NCBI RefSeq assembly: GCF_030540875.1
Contig: NZ_JAUOEM010000002.1
Span: 526,926-590,925, forward strand
Direction of reading: 5' to 3'
Source: Flavivirga amylovorans
GTDB lineage: Bacteria > Bacteroidota > Bacteroidia > Flavobacteriales > Flavobacteriaceae
Length of the DNA: 64,000 nt
The notes under the pieces were generated by a model. It ran no database searches and had not been told where the DNA came from. It saw only the letters and a list, made by a program, of their open reading frames with translations. Positions 41,762 to 45,043 of this stretch are shown one piece after another (the first letter of the stretch is position 1; the number at the start of each line of letters is the position of its first letter). The position numbers and the translations under genes were made by a program.

Positions 41762-44700
41762 ATGAAATACAATTTCAACGAGATAGAAGCCAAATGGCAA
41801 AAGTATTGGGCAGAAAACCAAACGTTTAAAGCTGTTAATAATAGTGAAAAACCAAAATATTATGTTTTGGATATGTTCCCTTATCCAAGTGGTGCAGGTT
41901 TACATGTTGGACACCCATTAGGATATATCGCTTCAGATATCTATGCGCGTTATAAACGTCATAAAGGTTTTAATGTATTACACCCTCAAGGCTATGATAG
42001 TTTTGGACTACCAGCAGAACAATATGCTATTCAAACTGGTCAGCATCCAGCAATAACGACTGCTGAAAACATAAAAACATACCGCCGACAGTTAGATCAA
42101 ATAGGGTTTTCATTCGATTGGTCTCGTGAGGTTAGAACGTCAGATCCAAGCTATTACAAATGGACACAATGGATTTTCATTCAATTGTTTGAATCCTGGT
42201 TTAATAATGCAACGAATAAAGCAGAAGACATTTCAAGTTTAGTAACCATTTTTGAAACTGATGGGAATACGAGTGTCAATGCCGTTTGTGATGATGATGT
42301 TGAAATGTTTTCTGCTAATGAATGGAATGGGTTTTCATCTGAAAAACAACAAAAAGTATTATTACAATACCGATTAACATATTTAGCTGAAACGGAAGTA
42401 AACTGGTGTCCTGCATTAGGAACTGTTTTAGCAAATGATGAAATTGTAAATGGTGTTTCCGAACGTGGAGGACACCCTGTTATTCGTAAAAAAATGACCC
42501 AATGGAGTATGCGTATTTCTGCATATGCAGAGCGTTTACTTCAAGGACTAGAGACTATTGATTGGACAGATTCTTTAAAAGAAAGCCAACGTAACTGGAT
42601 TGGAAAGTCGGTTGGGGCGTCTGTAGTATTCCCCATCCTATCCTTCCCCCGAAGGGAAGAGAAAGCAGGCTCTGAAAAACGCCCTGGTTATATGACAGGT
42701 GGAAATAATTCTCATTTATTGCTTGAAAGGGCTAAAGAAATGCGAGCTAATCCTACTCAGGCAGAAGAAGCGTTATGGCAAGAACTTAGAAATAAGAACC
42801 TTGATGCTAAGTTTAGACAGCAGCATTTAATTGGAGATTATATTGTTGATTTTGTTTGTTTAGATAAAAAGCTGATTATTGAAGTTGACGGAAAAATTCA
42901 TGAATCGCAAGTTGATGAAGATGCTAAGAGAACCGAAGTTTTAGAAAATGATTATTTCAAAGTTATTCGATTTACAAACGAAGAAGTTTTGAGCAATATT
43001 GAAAGTGTTCTAAAAATTATTCGAGAAGAATTAAGTCAAAGAGAATCAATCAAGAGTGAGAAAGTTCCCCCTTCGGGGGTTAGGGGGATTGAAGTCTTCA
43101 CAACAAGACCCGACACCATTTTCGGAGTAAGTTTTATGACCCTAGCACCAGAACACGAACTAGTATCACAAATAACCACCTCAGAACAAAAGGAAACTGT
43201 TGATGCATATATACTTGCATCTGCAAAACGTAGTGAGCGTGATAGAATGGCAGACGTTAAAACCATTTCAGGTGCTTTTACAGGAGCTTATGCAGAACAC
43301 CCATTTACAAAAGAACCTATTCCTATTTGGATTGGCGATTACGTATTAGCTGGTTATGGTACAGGAGCAGTGATGTCTGTACCATGTGGCGATCAACGTG
43401 ATTACGATTTTGCAAAGCATTTTAATATTCCAATTCCGAATATTTTTGAAGGTGTAGATATTTCTGAAGAAGCGTTTTCAGATAAAGAAAAAACCATCAT
43501 CGCAAATAGTGATTTCATTAACGGAATGAACTATAAAAAAGCAACCAAACGCATTATTTTTGAGTTGGAACAATTGGGACAAGGTCAAGGAAAAACGAAC
43601 TATAGGTTGCGTGATGCCGTATTTAGTAGACAACGCTACTGGGGCGAACCATTTCCTGTGTATTATGTGAATGGCATGCCACAAATGATTGCTAAAGAGC
43701 ATTTACCAATAAAATTACCAGAAGTTGAAAAGTATTTACCAACCGAAACAGGCGAGCCACCATTAGGAAACGCTAAAAAATGGTATTGGTTACAATATGG
43801 TGATAAAGCAGACATCGTATCCAAAGAAGAGTTTGAGAATTCCTCCCCTTCGGGGAGGTTAGGTGGGGCTTTAGAGTTGAATACCATGCCAGGTTGGGCA
43901 GGAAGTTCGTTTTATTTTAACAGATATATGGATCCTACCAATGATAATGAAATGGCTTCTAAAGAAGCATTGGATTATTGGAAGGATGTCGATTTATATA
44001 TTGGAGGAAGTGAGCATGCTACAGGACATTTATTGTATTCACGTTTTTGGCAAAAATTCTTGTTTGACAAAGGCGTTGTACCTGTTGATGAATATGCAAA
44101 AAAACTTATTAATCAAGGGATGATTTTGGGGACTAGTGCCTTTGTATACCGTATTGAAGGTGAGAATAAATTCATATCGAAAGGATTAATAGGAAAAAAT
44201 AAAGTACAACCAATTCATTCAGATGTATCTTTTGTAAATAGTTCTGATGAATTAGATATTGAAGCATTTAAAAATTGGAGAGAAGAATTTAAAGATGCAG
44301 AATTTATTCTTGAAGATGGGGTTTATAAAGTAGGTCGTGACGTAGAAAAAATGTCCAAATCTAAATACAACGTGGTTAATCCAGACCAAATATGTATTGA
44401 TTATGGAGCAGACAGCCTACGTCTCTATGAAATGTTCTTAGGACCTTTAGAACAATACAAACCATGGAATACAGCTGGTATTACAGGTGTACACAATTTC
44501 CTGAAAAAACTTTGGAAACTTTACCATCAAGGAGAAAATGGAAGCTTCTATGTAACGAGTTCCCCTCCTTCGGAGGGGTTAGGGGAGGCTCTTAAAACAC
44601 TCCATAAAACAATAAAGAAAGTTGAAGAAGATATTGAGAATTTTTCATTCAATACATCAGTGTCTACTTTTATGATAGCAGTTAACGAATTAACATCTCA

Positions 44701-45043
44701 AAAATGTACAAGTAAAGAGATTCTGGAACCTCTATTGATTTTAATGTCTCCTTATGCGCCTCATATTGCAGAAGAATTATGGAACCAATTAGGACACAAC
44801 GAATCTATTTCAACAGCAGATTTTCCAAAATTTGATGGAAGTCATTTGGTAGAAAGCAGTAAAAATTACCCCATTTCATTTAATGGGAAAATGCGATTTA
44901 CACTAGAATTGCCATTAGATATGAGTAAAGAGGATATAGAGAAAACAGTTTTAGAACACGAAAAAACGAAAGAACAATTACAAGGACGTGAACCTAAAAA
45001 GGTAATTGTGGTTCCAGGAAAAATAGTCAATATTGTAGGGTAA
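41762..45043 (+). CDS. leuS: Leucyl-tRNA synthetase with in-frame DUF559 and repeat insertions
   Basis: Charges tRNA-Leu. The core is complete: HIGH-type GLHVGHPLGYIASD (about residues 46-59), the CP1 editing domain with the threonine-rich FTTRPDTIFGVSFM, the LNTMPGWAGSSFYFN block, and KMSKS in VEKMSKSKYN (about 862-871). The ORF has 1093 codons against roughly 930 expected. The excess is a DUF559 nuclease domain at about residues 290-442, inserted between GASVVFPIL and GIEVFTTRPDT, and two short repeat-encoded peptides, SSPSGRLGGA (about 694) and SPPSEGLGEA (about 934). All three preserve the frame. The enzyme is essential, so these must be tolerated, perhaps as surface loops. Confidence 0.95.
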   Translation: MKYNFNEIEAKWQKYWAENQTFKAVNNSEKPKYYVLDMFPYPSGAGLHVGHPLGYIASDIYARYKRHKGFNVLHPQGYDSFGLPAEQYAIQTGQHPAITTAENIKTYRRQLDQIGFSFDWSREVRTSDPSYYKWTQWIFIQLFESWFNNATNKAEDISSLVTIFETDGNTSVNAVCDDDVEMFSANEWNGFSSEKQQKVLLQYRLTYLAETEVNWCPALGTVLANDEIVNGVSERGGHPVIRKKMTQWSMRISAYAERLLQGLETIDWTDSLKESQRNWIGKSVGASVVFPILSFPRREEKAGSEKRPGYMTGGNNSHLLLERAKEMRANPTQAEEALWQELRNKNLDAKFRQQHLIGDYIVDFVCLDKKLIIEVDGKIHESQVDEDAKRTEVLENDYFKVIRFTNEEVLSNIESVLKIIREELSQRESIKSEKVPPSGVRGIEVFTTRPDTIFGVSFMTLAPEHELVSQITTSEQKETVDAYILASAKRSERDRMADVKTISGAFTGAYAEHPFTKEPIPIWIGDYVLAGYGTGAVMSVPCGDQRDYDFAKHFNIPIPNIFEGVDISEEAFSDKEKTIIANSDFINGMNYKKATKRIIFELEQLGQGQGKTNYRLRDAVFSRQRYWGEPFPVYYVNGMPQMIAKEHLPIKLPEVEKYLPTETGEPPLGNAKKWYWLQYGDKADIVSKEEFENSSPSGRLGGALELNTMPGWAGSSFYFNRYMDPTNDNEMASKEALDYWKDVDLYIGGSEHATGHLLYSRFWQKFLFDKGVVPVDEYAKKLINQGMILGTSAFVYRIEGENKFISKGLIGKNKVQPIHSDVSFVNSSDELDIEAFKNWREEFKDAEFILEDGVYKVGRDVEKMSKSKYNVVNPDQICIDYGADSLRLYEMFLGPLEQYKPWNTAGITGVHNFLKKLWKLYHQGENGSFYVTSSPPSEGLGEALKTLHKTIKKVEEDIENFSFNTSVSTFMIAVNELTSQKCTSKEILEPLLILMSPYAPHIAEELWNQLGHNESISTADFPKFDGSHLVESSKNYPISFNGKMRFTLELPLDMSKEDIEKTVLEHEKTKEQLQGREPKKVIVVPGKIVNIVG
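42631..43088 (+). mobile_element. DUF559 nuclease element bounded by inverted family B repeats inside leuS
   Basis: The left arm (42631-42658) contains CCTTCCCCCGAAGGGAA. The right arm (43065-43088) reads TTCCCCCTTCGGGGGTTAGG and onward, the inverse orientation. Between them lies a full DUF559 domain: MRANPTQAEEALWQELRNKN, FRQQHLIGDYIVDFVC, KKLIIEVDGKIHES and VIRFTNEEVLSNIESVL. The D-x(n)-E-x-D pattern of Vsr-like PD-(D/E)XK nucleases is intact. An internal ATG (42692) could allow separate synthesis. Mobility is inferred from repeat flanks and position. Confidence 0.75.
43842..43869 (+). repeat. Family B repeat inside leuS, copy 3
   Basis: CCTCCCCTTCGGGGAGG forms a 7-bp stem with a TTC loop, followed by TTAGGTGGGGC. 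It is translated in frame between KEEFEN and LELNTMPGWAG. Confidence 0.8.
44562..44589 (+). repeat. Family B repeat inside leuS, copy 4
   Basis: CCCCTCCTTCGGAGGGG forms a perfect 7-bp stem with a TTC loop, followed by TTAGGGGAGGC. It is translated in frame between GSFYVT and LKTLHKTIKK. Confidence 0.8.

Follow-up and report, generated by a model that had tools for sequence, protein, structure and literature searches.

Homing elements usually survive in essential genes by splicing themselves out. I-Bth0305I, a homing endonuclease of the EDxHD or Vsr type, is a mobile intron protein, and a DUF559 gene has already been assigned to the EDxHD family (PMC9403480). Nevertheless, some elements spread without such a strategy. 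The ShiLan domain is a stop-free in-frame insert that spreads like a homing element and is neither an intein nor an intron (PMC11855218), while the WHO elements of yeast home into a housekeeping gene without protein splicing (PMC7282813). In addition, Rickettsia palindromic elements and the CGTC and GTAG REPs are palindromes found inserted in coding regions, including those of synthetase and repair genes (PMC3733652). Finally, Caulobacter VsrA is a DUF559 protein of the Vsr/PD-(D/E)XK superfamily, for which a role in mismatch repair has been proposed (PMC12907096). Here, a DUF559 nuclease domain bordered by palindromic DNA is found in frame inside the only leucyl-tRNA synthetase gene (leuS) found in the genome of Flavivirga amylovorans. 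Related copies lie at recurrent positions inside other housekeeping genes and appear to move between species, like a homing element that never splices itself out.

The locus was examined in a window of 64,000 nucleotides (assembly GCF_030540875.1, contig NZ_JAUOEM010000002.1, positions 526,926 to 590,925 of the forward strand), and its features are listed in the table below. The leuS reading frame is open for 1093 codons. Before the editing motif FTTRPDTIF and between LeuRS domains, Pfam finds PF04480 (DUF559) at aa 322-424 with an E-value of 7.8e-35 and a score of 119.5 bits, against a gathering cut-off of 20.6. The core motifs VDF (aa 362) and IIEVDGKIH (aa 372) are present, and the residues D59, E70, D72 and H76 of the domain are invariant in 56 sequences. 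The two palindromes that bracket the domain form an imperfect head-to-head pair, and two solitary palindromes lie further along the gene. This arrangement exceeds chance, as one repeat pattern with up to 3 mismatches gives 4 matches in the window, all in leuS, against 0.08 expected in shuffled sequence.

Table. Features of the leuS locus and related sites. Plain positions are those of the window; C6, C7 and C8 are contigs of the same genome.
Location	Strand	Feature	Remarks
41762..45043	+	leuS (leucyl-tRNA synthetase)	host gene
42629..42659	-	left terminal palindrome	C-rich head then pyrimidine/purine hairpin
42692..42694	+	internal ATG	possible start, not general among in-frame copies
42725..43033	+	DUF559 nuclease domain (PF04480)	in frame with leuS; C6:569650-569958
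43065..43089	+	right terminal palindrome	hairpin then TTAGGGGG tail; its 21-base core has one exact copy elsewhere in the genome
43842..43869	+	solitary palindrome	in-frame insert at LeuRS site 2; full DUF559 elements sit at this site in other genomes
44560..44589	+	solitary palindrome	in-frame insert at LeuRS site 3
C6:724741-724761		exact copy of the leuS right-end palindrome	positions 2542-2562 of the extracted locus (L347); probable uroporphyrinogen-III methyltransferase
C7:668766-668816		RecG of the window genome	short remnant with the left palindrome but no nuclease
C8:110670-110738		IleRS of the window genome	32-aa loop with a different palindromic repeat (CCTGAACTTGTTCCAGG, with CGTC beside it)
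L327:4215-6860		LeuRS of a MAG labelled Candidatus Paceibacterota	divergent; DUF559 insert at the same position

In the whole genome, the repeat is low-copy. A first pattern search matched only the two solitary leuS copies, and a second, made with the right end and up to 3 mismatches, matched that end and one exact copy that lies in frame near the N-terminus of a probable uroporphyrinogen-III methyltransferase. A LeuRS search accounts for one leuS in the genome, the other six matches being stand-alone DUF559 genes or sequences that look like other synthetases. As leuS is expected to be essential, the enzyme with the insert should work. Three further full DUF559 genes exist in this genome, each stand-alone and each among palindromes of other types. 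For two of these types, searches found no other full copy away from the locus, although one of these searches showed a 17-base match and the other used only an exact pattern.

The insert is not a fixed ancient domain. In 12 genomes of the same genus, including that of the window, LeuRS site 1 holds the nuclease in 6 and does not in 6, where the loops are of 14-22 aa. Genomes without the nuclease often carry other short repeat-like inserts there, so the loop looks like an insertion hot spot. RecG holds the nuclease in 4 genomes, a short remnant in 5 and nothing in 3, while IleRS holds it in 3, another short insert in 1 (that of the window) and nothing in 8. One RecG remnant, in the genome labelled G003, consists of the two end palindromes without the nuclease. 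A LeuRS copy in another genome, G013, which was not among the 56 sequences mentioned above, has partly lost the catalytic residues while the reading frame stays open. Filled alleles replace 3-10 loop codons rather than splitting the loop, and no target-site duplication was recognized by eye at the LeuRS, RecG or IleRS junctions. On a tree of 23 genomes built from LeuRS, RecG and IleRS without inserts, for which the bootstrap was not fully settled, presence needs at least 5, 5 and 3 changes, respectively.

Insert and host gene also have conflicting trees. The LeuRS inserts of genomes G005, G007 and G009 form one group (95/95), while the host gene places G009 with G001, G008 and the window genome, G000 (100/100). 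The insert data reject the host grouping (AU p 0.010) and the host data reject the insert grouping (AU p 1e-5), so the insert moved between species into the same site. The host grouping was taken from the tree described above, and the insert grouping was suggested by the pairwise divergences. In this trio, insert dS is 0.19-0.41 against 0.63-1.88 in the flanks, and in the three IleRS pairs it is 0.31-0.53 against 0.67-0.98. Nevertheless, the dS evidence is mixed over sites. Insert dS is below both flanks in 3 of 3 IleRS, 7 of 15 LeuRS and 5 of 10 RecG pairs (one with a saturated flank), is not in 8 of 15 LeuRS and 5 of 10 RecG pairs, and is above both flanks for the pair of G001 and G008. No co-conversion of flanking host DNA was seen in windows of 20 or 60 codons, a comparison of low power. 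Insert dN/dS is 0.06-0.24 in 28 of 28 pairs, so the protein has been conserved under purifying selection.

The phenomenon is wide. PF04480 occurs in 25 of 60 relatives and in 198 of 345 Bacteroidota genomes. The initial annotation had described DUF559 as usually stand-alone, but this does not hold among relatives, as 18 of 44 matches with E under 1e-20 in the 60 genomes lie in ORFs of 573 aa or more. With a threshold of 297 aa or more, the count in the 60 genomes is 18 of 44. Two partial matches (G014_L247 and G021_L248) are left out of the in-frame counts. In total, 26 kinds of host gene were named from HMM matches, with the domain lying in frame within 19 and at an end of 7. The hosts are LeuRS, IleRS, ValRS, RecG, RecJ, a UvrD-type helicase, MetH, IcmF, acetyl-CoA synthetase, LeuC, guanylate kinase, MazG, ArgB, HisD, HisF-type, RNase H, coproporphyrinogen oxidase, HsdR, four other restriction-modification types (ISP, Eco57I, MmeI-like and N6/N4 methylase), an M23 peptidase, a WbcJ-like reductase, a LegC-like aminotransferase and a CaiB-like CoA-transferase, the last three scoring below NCBI's cut-offs. 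In HisD, HisF, RNase H, coproporphyrinogen oxidase, LeuC, guanylate kinase and ArgB the domain sits at an end of the ORF, where the true start or stop could separate it, and 18 of 137 in-frame copies are terminal in this sense. LeuRS carriers include Hyunsoonleella ulvae, Marixanthotalea marina, Cellulophaga baltica and Gillisia species, as well as the MAG labelled Paceibacterota, which reflects either transfer across phyla or a mislabelled bin.

Despite this breadth, the positions are recurrent. Of the 49 LeuRS-hosted copies, all mapped on both sides, 44 lie at one position and 5 at a second, although a few rows are shifted by alignment. At the second position, where leuS of the window has a solitary palindrome, a very similar 27-aa insert occurs in Hyunsoonleella and Maribacter, while 8 of 12 same-genus genomes lack it. 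Nuclease clades largely follow the host gene. In a domain tree of 117 rows, from which one locus (L191) was left out, the RecG (9) and IleRS (3) copies are each one clade, whereas MetH (8) and HsdR (5) need 2 changes and LeuRS site 1 (12) needs 3, with support limited by the short domain. Host conservation beside the sites was modest, and this estimate was biased by the choice of conserved anchors.

Palindromic ends accompany most copies. Pyrimidine/purine hairpins with up to one mismatch lie within about 200-240 nt on both sides of 45 of 65 in-frame copies (0.06 expected; control windows 15 of 515), 27 of 38 stand-alone copies (control windows 7 of 293) and 7 of 14 copies from records of other phyla (control windows 6 of 112), each under 0.1 expected. 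Those 14 were selected by hand from 39 records with a match; L191 is left out of these sets, and one copy whose host ORF holds a run of N (G107_L220) is still among the 65. In a second set, hairpins lie on both sides of 53 of 72 in-frame copies (0.11 expected; control windows 21 of 527) and 5 of 8 copies in short ORFs (control windows 2 of 56). Thus, hairpins were missed on one or both sides in 20 of 65 and 19 of 72 in-frame copies. It should be noted that the definition was loosened after a first trial, in which perfect GC-rich stems were demanded and both sides were found in 14 of 65 in-frame, 4 of 38 stand-alone and 4 of 14 other-phylum copies. In-frame copies are mostly head-to-head, with a left C-head in 35 of 50 and a right G-tail in 34 of 54 (opposite signs 14 and 10), and 50 of 60 and 39 of 60 in the second set (opposite 12 and 11), while stand-alone copies show no such preference. 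In G005, two tandem stand-alone DUF559 genes have direct repeats of about 220 bp around and between them, as if the repeat-gene unit had duplicated. Scores for inverted or direct repeats in the flanks are only descriptive, as their null was drawn from other loci that include overlapping loci and kin; for in-frame copies they showed no strong left-right similarity except in the MetH copy of genome G042 (direct) and the LeuRS copy of genome G033 (inverted). In other phyla, some flanking repeats have the form CCCTCACCCTAACCCTCTCCCC...GGGGAGAGGGTTAGGGTGAGGG, whose G-strand has several G-tracts and might form a quadruplex.

The initial annotation had suggested that the nuclease is made as part of the synthetase or from the internal ATG. 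Such a codon is not general, as 63 of 127 internal copies have no ATG from 30 codons before to 3 into the domain. However, only 22 of 127 lack ATG, GTG and TTG alike. For those 22 the nuclease is probably made only with the host protein, while for the rest an internal start is possible. The predicted model of the domain (mean pLDDT 80.6) matches the DUF559 structure 3hrl (Foldseek E 2.9e-7), then I-Bth0305I (2.9e-4), its nearest solved relative of known function, and, weakly, Vsr (4.6e-2). The sequence profile agrees (3hrl 1e-30, 3r3p 1.3e-6). By contrast, the model of the full LeuRS is poor (mean pLDDT 69.8, pTM 0.47) and is not used here.

Taken together, these data fit a non-splicing, in-frame mobile cassette composed of an inverted palindrome, a DUF559 (Vsr/EDxHD-type) nuclease and a palindrome, which lives in loops of conserved proteins and is translated in frame with the host. 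This reading is given a probability of about 0.7. The core inference of the initial annotation, namely a mobile unit of repeat plus nuclease that inserts in frame into essential genes without an intein or intron, is supported by patchy presence, tree conflict and the range of host genes. It is only inferred that the nuclease cuts the empty allele, or perhaps the palindromic junction, and that repair from a filled copy installs the cassette, as with a homing endonuclease. Because the insert stays open in the host frame and sits in a tolerant loop, no self-splicing is needed.

A less likely alternative is palindrome-driven transposition, in which the hairpins are the mobile unit, as in REPs, and DUF559 is their dedicated nuclease or transposase, copying the cassette to many loci, so that fixed sites only reflect tolerant loops and inheritance. 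In agreement with this, hairpins lie on both sides of most in-frame and stand-alone copies, solitary palindromes occur at the same sites without nuclease, an exact copy of the leuS right end lies in frame in another gene of the same genome, stand-alone copies occur between operon genes such as paaD and paaZ, and the host genes are many. Nevertheless, flanking repeats are at most low-copy in this genome in the four searches made, no target-site duplication was seen by eye, and the restriction of LeuRS copies to two positions and the host-specific clades of RecG and IleRS nucleases are not predicted by random transposition.

An ancient vertical domain, or one domesticated for host benefit, for instance in DNA repair or regulation of the host enzyme, and lost in many lineages, is improbable. 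Purifying selection on the nuclease and the occurrence of the same site in distant genera would agree with it, but the trees conflict with AU rejection both ways, inserts are younger than host divergence in 15 of 28 pairs, catalytic residues are partly lost in G013 while LeuRS stays open, and the host genes are functionally unrelated. Finally, an intein or intron-borne endonuclease, although suggested by an in-frame nuclease in conserved proteins, its sporadic distribution and its relation to a mobile-intron protein, is very unlikely, as no intein family appears among the Pfam matches of 11 host proteins, no intron was found at an Rfam E of 1 or less in positions 42300-43400 (only a sub-threshold IS009 match), and the LeuRS, RecG and IleRS inserts (the LeuRS site of genome G036 was not included) are of 142-215 aa with palindrome-coded linkers.

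A more far-reaching possibility, which remains tentative, is that these cassettes constitute a distinct class of mobile element, widespread in Bacteroidota and with palindrome-flanked kin in Proteobacteria, Cyanobacteria and Deinococcota, that colonizes proteins themselves as permanent in-frame passengers, each lineage homing to one loop of one conserved gene. DUF559 nucleases may then be the missing mobilizing partner of a large set of orphan bacterial palindromic repeats. No description of such in-frame nuclease inserts was seen in the literature searched, which did not include subscription papers. If a nuclease does persist as a lasting part of tRNA synthetases, DNA helicases and metabolic enzymes, this would explain odd insertions in many annotated proteins, offer a candidate enzyme for palindromic repeats said to lack a transposase (PMC3733652), and supply natural examples of whole domains inserted into essential enzymes without loss of function.

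How, then, does this element compare with those described above? The domain is related to I-Bth0305I in fold and sequence, and a nuclease that drives spread into a fixed site fits the data, but here the domain is read as part of the host ORF and has palindromic ends. ShiLan and the WHO elements are the nearest published cases seen. In ShiLan the HNH nuclease is read out of frame, in a phage methylase, whereas here a DUF559 nuclease is in the host frame of many cellular genes, with palindromic ends. WHO elements replace the 3′ end of FBA1, while here the cassette is internal and both host halves are kept. Unlike VsrA, with its proposed role in mismatch repair, the DUF559 protein described here is read as a mobile element. 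With regard to the palindromes, CGTC repeats are reported to lack a dedicated transposase and GTAG repeats go with tyrosine transposases (PMC3733652). The leuS ends lack the CGTC tag, the leuS repeat types gave only 2 and 2 matches in two pattern searches of the genome, and the enzyme that lies between the two palindromes is not a tyrosine transposase but a DUF559 nuclease.
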